Below, in pieces: positions 53,922 to 60,418 of a DNA stretch of 64,000 nucleotides. Each line of letters begins with the position of its first letter. Positions within the stretch are counted from its first letter, which is position 1. Below the pieces are notes generated by a model. The model did no database searches and was not told where the DNA came from. It saw only the letters and a program-made list of their open reading frames with translations. A program made the position numbers and the translations under genes. The stretch spans positions 3,169,501 to 3,233,500 of the forward strand of contig NZ_CP031416.1 in NCBI RefSeq assembly GCF_003367375.1. The letters run 5' to 3'. This DNA is from Gallaecimonas mangrovi. Its GTDB lineage: Bacteria > Pseudomonadota > Gammaproteobacteria > Enterobacterales > Gallaecimonadaceae.

Positions 53922-54893
53922 TTAGTCAACGTGGTATTCGGTTAATGCTAGTGCCGCTTCAAATACTTCCAAGCCAGCGCCATTCTTGTGGGCATTTTCC
54001 GACAAATAGCGGCGCCAGCGGCGGCCGCCGGTTTGGCCGTTAAACAACCCCAACATATGCCGGCTGATATGGTTCAGGCGGGCCCCCTTGCTAAGCTCGG
54101 CTTCTATATAAGGGAACATGGCTTCAGCCACAGCGCGGCGGCTGGGTATTTCCTCGGTGCTGCCATAAAGCGCACTATCCACCTCGGCTAGCAAATAGGG
54201 GTTTTGATAGGCTTCGCGCCCCACCATCACCGAATCAATCTGTGCAAGGTGCCCTTTCATTTCATCCAGGGTTTTAATGCCGCCGTTAATACCGATGTGT
54301 AGCGCCGGAAAATCCTTTTTAAGCTGATAAACCCGCGGGTAATCCAAAGGCGGTATTTCGCGGTTTTCTTTGGGGCTTAACCCGTTTAGCCAGGCTTTAC
54401 GGGCATGCACAATAAAAGTGTTGCAGCCGGCGCGACTGACCTTGTCGACAAAATCGACCAAAAAATCGTAGCTGTCGAAATCATCAATACCAATACGGCT
54501 TTTTACCGTCACCGGAATAGCCACCGCATCTTGCATCGCTTTTACGCAGTCAGCCACCAGCTGCGGCTCCGCCATCAGGCAGGCACCAAAACGGCCATTT
54601 TGTACCCGGTCGGACGGGCAACCGACATTCAGGTTCACCTCGTCATAACCCCGGCTTTCAGCCAGCTTGGCGCAATGGGCCAAATCGGCCGGATTGGAGC
54701 CCCCCAGTTGCAACGCCAGCGGATACTCTTGTTCGCTAAACGCCAGATAGTCGCCTTTGCCATGAATAATGGCGCCAGTGGTCACCATTTCGGTATAAAG
54801 CAGGGCATGGCGGCTGAGCAGCCGGGCAAAGACCCGGTAGTGCCGATCAGTCCAGTCCAGCATGGGGGCAACGGAGAAGGTTCTATCCAGCAT
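53922..54893 (-). CDS. dusA: tRNA-dihydrouridine(20/20a) synthase DusA
   Basis: 323 residues. Reduces uridines 20 and 20a in tRNA using FMN and NADPH. The catalytic cysteine is in [20 protein letters not shown] and NLNVGCPSD are FMN-barrel motifs, and [18 protein letters not shown] is DusA-specific. Divergent from crcB and its riboswitch. Confidence 0.95.
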
Positions 54894-54970
54894 GGTGCAC
54901 TCACATCAAAGGGGCGCAAAGTTTACTCAATGGCTGATGTTGGGGCAAATGGCGAACAGCCAACAAGCGA

Positions 54971-54999
54971 TTTTCATCCTCAAAACCTTGTGTTAAATT
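54971..54999 (+). promoter_or_regulatory. Probable promoter of the fluoride operon
   Basis: An extended -10 (TG-T-TAAATT, hexamer 54994-54999) lies about seven bases before the riboswitch starts at 55007, the right distance for a transcript that begins with the aptamer. The -35 (TTTTCA at 54971) is weak. Confidence 0.4.
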
Positions 55000-55006
55000 T
55001 ACCCTT

Positions 55007-55119
55007 CACAGGAGATGGCATGCCTCCTTTAACCGCCGTTCTCGGCTGATGATGCCTGTGCTAACCCCGGACGGGTTCACAGGATAGTTGTGCCCGTCCT
55101 AATGACATTAGGACAATCC
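55007..55119 (+). ncRNA. Fluoride riboswitch (crcB motif) with translational expression platform
   Basis: The aptamer (55007-55060) has the crcB-motif core: GGAGATGGCATGCCTCC, then TTTAACCGCC, a variable loop, GGCTGATGATGCCTG. P1 pairs CACAGG (55007-55012) with CCTGTG (55055-55060). Downstream, CCTGTG can pair instead with a second CACAGG (55078-55083), extended by AACCC/GGGTT. GGACGGG (55069-55075), locked in that stem, can pair with CCCGTCC (55093-55099), and the latter otherwise joins a hairpin (GTCCTAA 55096-55102 / TTAGGAC 55108-55114) that hides the crcB ribosome site. No T tract follows, so control is likely translational, on with fluoride. Confidence 0.88.
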
Positions 55120-55503
55120 ATGTTTCAATCAATCCTTGCCATAGCCATCGGCGCTACCCTCGGCGCGACGGCGAGATGGTCTCTGGGCCTGGCGCTTAAC
55201 AGCGTTTTCCCTACCCTGCCCTTGGGTACCCTTGTTGCCAATTATCTCGGTGCTTACCTAATGGGTTTGGCCATGGCGTTCTTTGCCGTTTTCACCACCG
55301 TTCAGCCCGAATGGCGCCTACTTGCCATGACCGGCTTCTTAGGTAGCTTGACCACCTTTTCTACCTTCTCGGCAGAAACCGTGACCTTGCTGCGCGACGG
55401 CCAATGGCAGTGGGGTATGGCCAGCATCGGTTTGCATGTGCTCGGTTCTTTGCTGATGACCACGCTTGGGCTCTTTACTTTTTCCCTTTTTAAAAACCAC
55501 TAG
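55120..55503 (+). CDS. crcB: Fluoride ion channel CrcB/Fluc
   Basis: 127 residues, four membrane spans. Dual-topology dimers export fluoride. Family motifs: [23 protein letters not shown] and [16 protein letters not shown] with the pore phenylalanines and polar track. The start at 55120 follows TTAGGA by six bases, and that site is in the hairpin of the riboswitch. An upstream GTG lies inside the riboswitch and is not used. Confidence 0.95.
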
Positions 55504-55512
55504 GAGGCCGTT

Positions 55513-55821
55513 ATGCAAGGCTACAAAGTGACCTTTTTCACCGAGCAAGACCGCAAACATAAAGGCCAGATGATCGCTGACTGGCTGTTGGCGCAAGCCA
55601 AAGAAGTGGGCGTTTCCGGTGCCACCGTTATCGTTGCTGAAGAAGGCTTTGGCCGTGAGGGTAAACTGCATTCAGCGCACTTTTTTGAACTCGCGGATGT
55701 ACCGGTGGAAGTCACCATGGTGGTGAGTGACGCTAACAAAGACAAACTCATCGATAAGGTAAAGGAAGCCGGTCTCGGGATTTTCTACGTTATTAACCCG
55801 GTTGAATACGGCACCCTTTAA
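55513..55821 (+). CDS. DUF190 family protein
   Basis: 102 residues, PII-like alpha/beta fold without a T-loop signature. Family stretches: TFFTEQD near the N-terminus, GATVIVAEEGFG, and PVEVTMVVSD. DUF190 genes often follow crcB; a role in fluoride resistance or as a small regulator is possible. Nine bases after crcB, AGGAGG precedes the ATG. Confidence 0.88.
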   Translation: MQGYKVTFFTEQDRKHKGQMIADWLLAQAKEVGVSGATVIVAEEGFGREGKLHSAHFFELADVPVEVTMVVSDANKDKLIDKVKEAGLGIFYVINPVEYGTL

Positions 55822-55839
55822 CTGCACATCCCTGCCATT

Positions 55840-55865
55840 AAAAAAGCGGCCCAGGCCGCTTTTTT
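55840..55865 (+). terminator. Terminator after the crcB operon
   Basis: AAAAAGCGGCC / GGCCGCTTTTT stem with a loop of two to four bases. Confidence 0.85.
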
Positions 55866-56201
55866 ATGCTTCTAAAGAAATGTGCATAGAACCACATTTT
55901 CAATATATCCCCACCGTTAAAGCCTGTATTTATTAACAGCAAAAAAGCTCTGCTTCTTATTTATAGCAATATAAAAAATATAAAATTCAATAAGTTAAAA
56001 ACCAAAACTAATAGAAGACAACCTAAATAAAAGATGACTACACTAAAGACAATTCGATAGAACACACGCCCACGGCTCTTTTACATCACCTGCGAGATAA
56101 CAGCCTGGTTATGGCATCAAGCCTTAATAATTTGGCGCTACTGTCGATGACATTGCCCTAGTTTGGGCCTTAGTTGCTGCAGACATAACAAGGATAAGGA
56201 T
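55866..56201. other. AT-rich intergenic region before the sigma-54 activator
   Basis: 336 bp; from about 55880 to 56050 it is strongly AT-rich, unlike its surroundings. No coding frame. Such regions are often bound by H-NS-type silencers near acquired clusters; that is inference. Confidence 0.45.
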
Positions 56202-57179
56202 ATGTCCCAACTGCACAGTAATCTCGTCGGTTCTTCACAGACCTTTCAGCACACCCTTAAACGCCTTCACCGCTTAGCAGGCATTGATGCCACCGTGCTT
56301 ATTACCGGCGAAAGCGGCACCGGTAAAGAGCTGGCCGCCCGGGCCCTGCATTATCTTGGTCAGCAAAGTGAAAAGCCCTTTATTCCGGTCAACTGCGGCG
56401 CACTGTCTGACACCTTGTTAGAAAGTGAACTCTTTGGCCATGAAAGAGGCGCGTTTACCGATGCCAAACAGTCTTACCAAGGCTTGGTAGGGGAAGCACA
56501 AGGTGGCACCTTGTTTATGGACGAAGTCGATACCCTCAGCCCCAAAGCGCAGGCGGCGTTACTGCGTTTTTTGCAGGAAAAAACATATCGGCGAGTGGGC
56601 GGCCAAGGCCAGCAACAAGCAGAACTGAGGATCCTAGTCGCCTCCAATGCAGACTTATCCCGCTTGGTGCAAAAAGGCGTGTTCCGGCAAGACTTGCTCT
56701 ATCGCCTTAACGTGTTGAATCTCAACATGCCGCCACTTCGTCAGCGCGGTAATGATGCCATCGAGCTGGCCCAACATTATGTCAAACGCTTGCAAGTGCA
56801 ATATCAAGAACCACATCGCCACCTGCACAGCACCGCCCTTGCCTTTATCCGCCAATACCACTGGCCTGGTAACGTTCGAGAACTCCATAGCCTGTTATTG
56901 CGTGAGTTTTTACTGTGTGAAACAAACGAAATGCACTGTGAAGAAAGCCGCCATTTGCTGGCTGATAACGCCACAGCAACCAATGAGCCAGCCGACTTTA
57001 AAGCCGCGAAGGCACAAGCCGTGGCCGCCTTTGAGCGCAACTACGTGGCTAAATTGCTGAACCAAACCGGCGGCAATATCAGCCAAGCCGCCAGGCTGGC
57101 TGGCCAAGACCGCAGCGCCTTTGGAAAATTGGTGCGTAAATATGGCCTAAGAACCCAGGAAGACACTTTATCCCCTTGA
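56202..57179 (+). CDS. Sigma-54-dependent activator without N-terminal sensor domain
   Basis: 325 residues, almost entirely AAA+ domain plus DNA-binding end. Walker A GESGTGKE, the sigma-54 contact loop reads GAFTDA (usual GAFTGA), Walker [11 protein letters not shown], arginine finger [19 protein letters not shown], and a C-terminal Fis-type helix-turn-helix ([16 protein letters not shown]). No receiver or PAS domain, so it is of the PspF architecture. Probably activates the T6SS genes to its right. AAGGATAAGG precedes the ATG at 56202; the upstream TTG lacks a ribosome site. Confidence 0.85.
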
Positions 57180-57298
57180 AATAAGCGCTTTAACCTGACC
57201 TGCGTTGACCCTAAACCACTTTTTGTTAACGCTTGCCCCAGACACTGCCCCTGTGCAATCTGACAGGTAGCTGCAGTTACGCGCAGTCAAGAGGACCA

Positions 57299-58303: not shown

Positions 58304-60418
58304 ATGTTGGGAAGCATACAGGACAGGCTGACGCGGGTTCGTCCACCGCGCGTGCGCATCACCTATGACGTTGAAACCGGTGGCGCGCTTGAGAAAAAGG
58401 AACTGCCTTTTGTGGTGGGCATCATGGCGCAGTTGGGCAGCGATGCCCAAATGTCACAGTTGCCGCCAATCAAAGAGCGCAAATTCAACGAAATTGACCG
58501 TGACAGCTTTAACAGCATCATGGCCACCATCGCCCCAGAAGTGGCGGTAGGTTCGCTGCCAAACGCCATGGCGGACGATCCAAAAGCTACCCTGGGTGTG
58601 CCGCCACTGGTGTTTAAAAAAATGGATGACTTTGACCCTGTGGCCATCATCCGTCAGGTAGCGCCCATGGCAACGCTCTACAGTGGCCGGGGCAATATTC
58701 GCTTTTTGCAATCAAAAGCCGAGATCTCTGGCACCCTTGCCCGCTATCTCGACACCGTGTGCGGCTTTGATGAAGGTGACGACACCAGCTGTAGCGACGC
58801 CCGCCAAGCCTTATTGGACCAATTTAAAGATGTCACGCCAGCCGAAGACGACCCGCAAAAGCCGCTGCCACTCGCCGAGCGCTGGGCCAGTGCCTACAAA
58901 GCGGTGGAGTTAAGCGACTCGCTTAAAGAACTGTTTGCGCAATTGGGCCTGGAAGACAGCGCCGCTGACACCATGAAAGTGTTGCTTGGGCAATTTAGCA
59001 AAGACGTGGTTTCGCCCCTTGCTCAAACCATTAGCAGCAAAGACTTCGTTGCCAGCGAGCAAGACAAGCTCAAGGGCGCTGCCGCCCGGATTGACGACCA
59101 GGTCGCCGAAATAGACCGGCTTTTAGGATTGCAGCTAGATGTCATCATGCATGATGACGATTTTCAAAAGCTCGAATCCACCTGGCGCGGCCTGTCTTAT
59201 TTGGTGTCTCGCACCGAAACCGGCGCCATGCTGAAGCTGAAAATACTCAATGCCTCAGCCAAAGATCTGCTGGCCGACCTCACCAAAGCGGTGGAGTTTG
59301 ACCAAAGCGGCCTCTTTAAAATGATCTACGAAGACGGCTACGGCATCTATGGCGGTATGCCGTATAGCGTGTTGATTGGTGCTTACGAATTTGGCCGTCA
59401 CCCCAATGACATGACACTACTGGGCAAACTGGCAGAAGTGGCAGCCGCCAGCCACGCCCCATTTATTGCCGCCGCCTATGCCAAGCTGTTCGACCTGGAA
59501 AGCTTTGAAAGCCTGGCTAAACCGCGCGATCTGCAAAAGATCTTTGAAAGCGTTGAGCTGGCCAGTTGGAGCGAATTTCGTAAAAGCGAAGACTCACGCT
59601 ATGTCACCTTAACGCTGCCAAGGGTTTTGCTGCGGCTGCCCTATGGGCCAGACACCCAGCCGTGCGATGGCCTTAACTACCGTGAGATTGTCGGTAAAGA
59701 AAAGCTCAGCGACGCTGAAGTCAACGGTAAAAAAGCCACCCAACTGGTGCCCGATGCCAGCCTGTTTTTATGGGGCAACCCGGCTTTTGTATTGGCCGAA
59801 CGTATCACCAACGCCTTTGCCATTTACGGCTGGACCGCAGCTATCCGCGGTGTGGAAGGGGGTGGCTTGGTGGGCGGCCTGCCGGTTTTCAGTTACGACT
59901 CTGACGAAGGCGACGTGCAAATGGTCTGCCCCACCCAAGTTGCGATTACCGACCGGCGGGAAAAGGAGCTTAACGATTTGGGCTTTATGGCCATCTGCCA
60001 CTGCAAAGGCACCAGCCAGGCAGCCTTCTTTGGTGGCCAAACCACCAACCTGCCTAAGAAGTACCTATCAGACCTTGCCAACAGCAATGCCCAAATTTCA
60101 GCCATGTTGCCGTACATCATGGCGGCCTCGCGCTTTGCCCATTACATCAAGGTGATCATGCGCGAAAAGGTCGGTGCCTTTATGACCCGCGGCAATGTCG
60201 AGTCCTACCTCAATACCTGGATCTCTCAGTACGTGCTGCTGGACGAAAACGCCGCGCAAGTGATGAAAGCCGCCTACCCCCTCAGCGCCGCCTCGGTCAC
60301 CGTCACCGACGTGCCTGGCCGGCCCGGCGTTTACAAAGCCACGTTATTCCTGCGGCCGCACTTCCAGCTAGAGGAACTGACAACGTCCATCCGCCTGGTA
60401 GCCGAGTTACCAGCCTGA
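58304..60418 (+). CDS. Fused T6SS sheath protein TssB-TssC
   Basis: 704 residues. Residues 1-140 are TssB/VipA (RVRPPRVRITYDVETGG, KKELPFVVGIMAQLG, RKFNEIDRD, FKKMDDFDPVAI). Residues about 246-704 are TssC/VipB (FQKLESTWRGLSYLVS, EFGRHPNDMTLL, ESEDSRYV-like KSEDSRYVTLTLPRVL, AIRGVEGGGLVGGLPV, ITDRREKELNDLGF, LRPHFQLEELT). The join (about 141-245) has GTLARYLDTVCGF, which lines up with the ClpV-binding helix at the start of VipB. TssB and TssC are separate proteins in the systems I know. A stop at 58283-58285 bars an upstream start; GAAGGA is 14 bases before the ATG. Confidence 0.93.
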   Translation: MLGSIQDRLTRVRPPRVRITYDVETGGALEKKELPFVVGIMAQLGSDAQMSQLPPIKERKFNEIDRDSFNSIMATIAPEVAVGSLPNAMADDPKATLGVPPLVFKKMDDFDPVAIIRQVAPMATLYSGRGNIRFLQSKAEISGTLARYLDTVCGFDEGDDTSCSDARQALLDQFKDVTPAEDDPQKPLPLAERWASAYKAVELSDSLKELFAQLGLEDSAADTMKVLLGQFSKDVVSPLAQTISSKDFVASEQDKLKGAAARIDDQVAEIDRLLGLQLDVIMHDDDFQKLESTWRGLSYLVSRTETGAMLKLKILNASAKDLLADLTKAVEFDQSGLFKMIYEDGYGIYGGMPYSVLIGAYEFGRHPNDMTLLGKLAEVAAASHAPFIAAAYAKLFDLESFESLAKPRDLQKIFESVELASWSEFRKSEDSRYVTLTLPRVLLRLPYGPDTQPCDGLNYREIVGKEKLSDAEVNGKKATQLVPDASLFLWGNPAFVLAERITNAFAIYGWTAAIRGVEGGGLVGGLPVFSYDSDEGDVQMVCPTQVAITDRREKELNDLGFMAICHCKGTSQAAFFGGQTTNLPKKYLSDLANSNAQISAMLPYIMAASRFAHYIKVIMREKVGAFMTRGNVESYLNTWISQYVLLDENAAQVMKAAYPLSAASVTVTDVPGRPGVYKATLFLRPHFQLEELTTSIRLVAELPA

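Follow-up and report, generated by a model that had tools for sequence, protein, structure and literature searches.

The window, by which we mean the whole analysed stretch of 64,000 nucleotides from Gallaecimonas mangrovi, carries a fluoride riboswitch aptamer upstream of a fluoride-handling gene, crcB, which is followed by a DUF190 gene (Table 1). The CrcB frame from 55120 also matches TIGR00494, and a dihydrouridine synthase gene (dus) stands divergently on the 5′ side of the riboswitch. Farther along the window, at 58304–60418, one 704-aa frame bears a VipA domain (residues 10–152) together with VipB domains (264–581 and 592–702) and combines both type VI secretion sheath proteins; VipA and VipB are usually encoded by two genes.

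Table 1. Riboswitch elements and genes at the crcB locus, in window positions
Feature	Position	Strand	Description
Fluoride riboswitch aptamer (RF01734)	55002–55065	+	cmscan 52.7 bits, gathering 34; full-length model match
Stem 1 hairpin	55011–55027	+	GGAG 55011–55014 : CUCC 55024–55027; family model alignment
Pseudoknot	55017–55056	+	GGCAU 55017–55021 : AUGCC 55052–55056; register set by hand
OFF hairpin (H1)	55055–55083	+	CCUGUG 55055–55060 : CACAGG 55078–55083; -13.6 kcal/mol alone
Strand A	55069–55075	+	GGACGGG, SD-like competitor; pairs with strand C when the tail is withheld (probability 0.88–0.99)
ON helix (H2)	55069–55099	+	GGACGGG 55069–55075 : CCCGUCC (strand C) 55093–55099; -16.5 kcal/mol alone
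Ribosome-site hairpin (H3)	55096–55114	+	GUCCUAAU 55096–55103 : AUUAGGAC 55107–55114; -7.4 kcal/mol alone
Shine-Dalgarno (SD)-like AGGA	55110–55113	+	6 nt 5′ of the crcB ATG; sequence
crcB, fluoride efflux transporter, 127 aa	55120–55503	+	PF02537 96.8 bits (cut-off 32.9); NF010792 164.6 bits (cut-off 125)
DUF190 gene, 102 aa	55513–55821	+	PF02641 56.7 bits (cut-off 23.4)

Aptamer identity and internal pairing

It is practically certain that the aptamer is a fluoride riboswitch, as an earlier note on this DNA had called it from the crcB motif. The single match covers the family model end to end (1–64 of 64), and the rest of the genome contains no further RF01734 match. The letters and coordinates quoted in that note also agreed with the sequence when checked. 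The pseudoknot can form five of its six pairs in the window and at least five of six in 81 of 81 distinct aptamers, five aptamers under the gathering score having been removed beforehand; in this comparison the pairs are formed in 96% of cells, versus 83% when the partners are shuffled. The linchpin positions A55049 and U55057 carry the expected bases, and we take them to be A40 and U48, respectively, with the register set by hand on the Thermotoga petrophila numbering. PMC11077080 describes the role of the A40-U48 linchpin.

The earlier note had further proposed that CACAGG at 55007–55012 pairs with CCUGUG as a helix of the aptamer, and this part of its scheme did not stand. The pairing cannot coexist with the folded aptamer, in which 55011–55014 lie in stem 1, 55055–55056 lie in the pseudoknot and U55057 is the assigned linchpin. 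Among the 81 aptamers, the outer three pairs of this candidate helix occur in 26% of cells versus 27% after shuffling, and at least five of its six pairs are possible in only 7. The mutually exclusive elements are instead the OFF hairpin and the pseudoknot/linchpin strand.

Computed folds of the expression platform

The pairings of CCUGUG with CACAGG and of GGACGGG with CCCGUCC, as well as the hairpin of 8 pairs over the ribosome site, lie where the earlier note had located them. That note lacked the inner helix of H1, AACCC 55063–55067 with GGGUU 55073–55077, which occupies the GGG of GGACGGG, and the side helix of H2, CACAG 55078–55082 with UUGUG 55088–55092. The OFF platform, with H1 and H3, was computed at -23.6 kcal/mol (fold of 55055–55140) and the ON platform, with H2 including CACAG:UUGUG, at -21.1 kcal/mol (fold starting at 55061), so the two are near each other in energy. 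Based on these two computed folds, CACAGG swaps partners between OFF and ON.

Constrained folding at 37 °C, the check that the earlier note had suggested, flipped the fold when the aptamer tail was withheld. With the tail free, the probabilities of H1 and H3 were 0.94 and 0.93, respectively. That of H3 fell to 0.39 when 55055 alone was withheld and to 0.016 for 55055–55058, and withholding just the pseudoknot cytosines 55055–55056 reduced it to 0.12 and brought GGACGGG:CCCGUCC up to 0.88. Considering that 55055–55056 are both pseudoknot bases, the aptamer and H1 compete for them. Opening in the ON form is incomplete: a weak hairpin of -3.2 kcal/mol covers part of the SD and the start, and the mean unpaired probability of 55109–55114 rises from 0.02 to 0.51 at most with the tail withheld. 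The cost of opening AGGA shifts by just 1.0 kcal/mol when the four tail bases are withheld, a shift reached by 44 of 1000 shuffles. On the same measure, three leaders that are relays by the score described below (L017, L021 and L027) showed no shift, their values being slightly negative.

In stepwise minimum-energy folds, H1 is complete at transcript end 55083, ahead of strand C. With the tail held, H2 starts growing at 55096 and has fully formed by 55099, with the SD still to be transcribed. With the tail free, the minimum is H2 for 3′ ends 55099–55113 and returns to H1 plus H3 at 55114, and therefore the OFF state would need either a persisting H1 or later equilibration. The order of events proposed below is inferred from these stepwise folds.

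To score the relay we summed the stacking energies of three helices, namely tail:T′, A:C with A inside the first loop, and C:SD overlapping C. The window scores -43.4. Among 1000 dinucleotide shuffles of the platform, 0 did as well; of 8000 natural window pieces substituted for the platform, 1 did, and this piece may overlap the platform itself. The window platform also lies within strict limits for each helix. Its total fold energy is ordinary, with 20 of 200 shuffles folding equally well. When tails or SD regions from 20 other crcB leaders were put into the window, every score dropped, often slightly, because tails and SDs resemble one another.

An alternative output would be mainly transcriptional, the OFF message being ended by Rho, or polymerase being halted at a hairpin that has no U tract, with access to the ribosome site secondary. 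Terminator platforms are common in the fluoride riboswitch class according to passages of PMC2864571 and PMC13273304, and PMC7266159 proposes for translational riboswitches in general that Rho acts on OFF messages left untranslated. We nevertheless consider this output unlikely, as 54880–55520 holds no terminator-like site, consistent with the missing T tract of the earlier note, and the relay terminates precisely at the ribosome site. An intrinsic terminator or terminator-type riboswitch was rejected on the same ground, the overlapping hairpin at 55055–55083 being without a U tract.

Recurrence of the relay topology and covariation

RF01734 matches (E up to 0.001) were found in 57 of 394 genomes of the order, 26 of 369 of the class and 67 of 398 of the phylum, in samples that overlap. 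From the order and class we took a first set of 88 aptamers, excluding L103 and one match without a locus (L numbers denote individual leaders), and scored 64 leaders. Starts in the leader sets were called by rule, wrongly so for L029, L064, L065, L076 and L115, and L003 was lost since a mis-called start made its leader too long. In the first set, the relay was found at 2.5% of shuffles or less in 27 of 64 leaders, and 15 leaders, the window included, were unmatched by any shuffle. Limits set on each helix were passed by 21 of the 51 leaders of at least 45 nt, against 4.7 expected, and by 0 of 13 short ones. The loci with a crcB match numbered 27, of which 21 were scored, most with starts set by hand and six by rule; L025, L029, L080, L081, L089 and L099 were left out as long or uncertain. 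Among the 21, 15 reached 2.5% or less, L056 stood at 4%, and five (L022, L105, L096, L090 and L082) had no relay by score at 5%.

Because the relay rule was devised after relay-like leaders had been noticed by eye in the order and class set, only the leader set drawn later is a fresh test. This set comprised 46 loci, with a start called in 37 and 35 scored, and included just 20 further places from the RF01734 matches of the phylum sample. Five plasmid loci were chosen by likeness to the window, two by leader-containing DNA and three by CrcB protein, and hence are not a blind draw. Among its 28 leaders of at least 45 nt, 12 lay at 2.5% or less (0.7 expected) and 15 at 5% or less (1.4 expected), and the strict limits were passed by 15 leaders versus 5.85 expected. 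Independent cases are fewer than these counts, since many leaders come from few clades; L122 and L086, for example, belong to the same genus. What recurs is the same topology (tail:T′, A:C and C:SD) with mostly different letters. A DNA search with the platform in 369 class genomes gave seven matches besides the window's own genome, all at query 8–61, which is the aptamer.

Two further observations concern other leaders. In L068, L070 and L119 the tail pairs directly with the SD, beating 200 of 200 shuffles, which represents a second translational layout. In L002, L005–L012, L014 and L016 the fluoride riboswitch precedes a 230-aa protein, for which one scanned member gave weak, below-cut-off matches to the Fe-S scaffold families NifU/IscU/SufU; 8 of these 11 leaders have the relay at 2.5% of shuffles or less.

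The plan of the window is shared by homologous leaders on Pseudomonas plasmids, a Marinobacter plasmid and an Ideonella plasmid, and is also present in L112, L114, L115, L116, L151 and L027. Several of these share letters with the window, and L151 has an identical GGACGGGU. A DUF190 gene follows crcB in 5 of 5 plasmid records, and L132, a crcB leader from a P. syringae plasmid in the later set, has the same relay by score. In the Pseudomonas-type leaders L116, L129 (643–793), L130 and L132, an ATG or TTG comes after the relay-hairpin SD, about 80–90 nt before the crcB start, an arrangement suggestive of a short upstream reading frame that is coupled with crcB.

Covariation was counted in 12 crcB leaders on a hand-made structural alignment, with relatedness outside the model. 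For H2, 85 of 96 cells are paired and three positions show changes on both sides; swapping the partners matched this in 3 of 2000 trials. For H1, 81 of 84 cells are paired, and the two positions that show changes on both sides are ones where the window departs from the majority (G-C for A-U and U-A for C-G). Partner swaps matched in 158 of 2000 trials for H1 and in 631 of 2000 for H3, which is paired in 64 of 72 cells; H1 and H3 are indistinguishable from partner swaps because their pairs are too constant. One of the two refutations named in the earlier note, a lack of conservation of the mutually exclusive pairs in relatives, does not apply, since the relay recurs in relatives, with compensated changes in the homologues.

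A simpler reading would be that the contest between H1 and the aptamer matters by itself, with A:C incidental and the ribosome-site hairpin opening otherwise or never. The small change in SD opening cost fits this reading, as do L068, L070 and L119, whose direct pairing needs no relay. It is nonetheless slightly less likely even than transcriptional control, considering that the relay outscores all 1000 shuffles and recurs in the later set, that the changes in A:C are compensated beyond what partner swaps usually give, and that direct tail:SD pairing as good as that of the window is seen in 1000 of 1000 shuffles. The translational relay is thus preferred to both.

As to the origin of the locus, the DNA on its side of dus (54893–57200) is lineage-specific: 4 of 4 other genomes of the genus lack crcB, the DUF190 gene, the next genes and a sigma-54 activator within 1.5 kb of dus on this side, and the gene on the opposite side of dus is present in all four. 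The dus flanks differ among those four genomes, and the place is a possible insertion site. The same four genomes hold no RF01734 match and only distant CrcB proteins (35–41%), and no close copy of the platform was found in the genus. Nearer CrcB proteins occur in five genome contigs (57–59%), whose CrcB loci lack RF01734 at the gathering score, and on a plasmid (up to 62%). The crcB block was probably acquired. These differences within the genus could also suit a decayed copy, in which the aptamer came in recently with an acquired crcB cassette and the platform has lost its ability to switch in this host, but this is very improbable given that the aptamer is complete, the CrcB and DUF190 frames are open, the OFF and ON forms are balanced and switchable in folding, and the window itself has compensated H1 positions.

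The proposed switch and known systems

Taken together, these results make it likely that a translational relay is the output of this riboswitch, which would be a fluoride-activated translational switch for crcB. The core relay and translational logic of the earlier note is upheld by constrained folding, shuffles and relatives, with the aptamer pairing replaced. Without fluoride, CACAGG (55078–55083) would invade the 3′ pseudoknot/linchpin strand of the aptamer within 55055–55060, and the resulting H1 would sequester strand A and leave strand C free. The GUCC of the free strand C and the following UAAU would then fold onto the ribosome site and occlude it. In the presence of fluoride, the pseudoknot and linchpin would retain the tail, A would pair with C once C is transcribed, and CACAG would move to UUGUG. 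A:C would block the ribosome-site hairpin, and CrcB would be made. The fluoride response, the order of events in the cell and the effect on translation are inferred, whereas the identity of the aptamer, the positions of the helices, the flip in computed folds and the recurrence of the topology are shown.

With less assurance, though on balance favourably, we regard the relay as a widespread third platform of fluoride riboswitches in Pseudomonadota, beside terminators and direct pairing of tail and ribosome site, in which a single anti-SD strand is contested by the real SD and by an SD-like strand hidden in the invading hairpin. If so, it would occur before crcB, ClC-type and other genes with changing letters, and the conserved sequence of the pseudoknot would thereby be uncoupled from the ribosome site. 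If the relay is recurrent, the translational class would gain a switching path that is defined and testable, one and the same exchange of the pseudoknot strand would prove able to power a longer series of folds, and natural fluoride-inducible leaders without a terminator would become available. Translational fluoride riboswitches are already known; the relay path is apparently undescribed, as no account of such a platform for fluoride riboswitches was found in the literature texts searched.

In E. coli thiM, the competing strand belongs to the aptamer, whereas that of the window sits on the loop side of another hairpin and is one step farther removed from the ligand. Terminators overlapping crcB motifs were noted in passages of Weinberg 2010 (PMC2864571), and the exchange of strands between pseudoknot and terminator is, in the relevant part of PMC11077080, established in Bacillus cereus and studied in T. 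petrophila. These transcriptional riboswitches share the aptamer class of the window (PMC11077080, PMC13273304, in part), but their invading hairpin is itself the intrinsic terminator, whereas the window hairpin has no U tract and traps the strand governing the ribosome site. PMC11077080 also cites a translational fluoride riboswitch used in archaea, and a passage of PMC8814607 terms control of translation by a fluoride riboswitch presumed. In PMC13273304 (2026), whole-riboswitch covariation models were derived from fluoride switches that bear terminators, P. syringae and B. pseudomallei serving as the translational controls, and its wider search reads as also covering translational platforms, as an aptamer plus one hairpin. 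The switches of P. syringae (eriC) and Burkholderia pseudomallei have the same aptamer class and translational control (PMC13273304; PMC8814607), and the published passages on them give no platform path to compare with the window relay. The closest likeness in logic is to the anti-anti-RBS scheme outlined in part of PMC7266159, where the anti-RBS strand is drawn off the ribosome site by a competing strand, as it would be in the window; that scheme is an OFF switch, whereas here the ligand would turn the gene ON.
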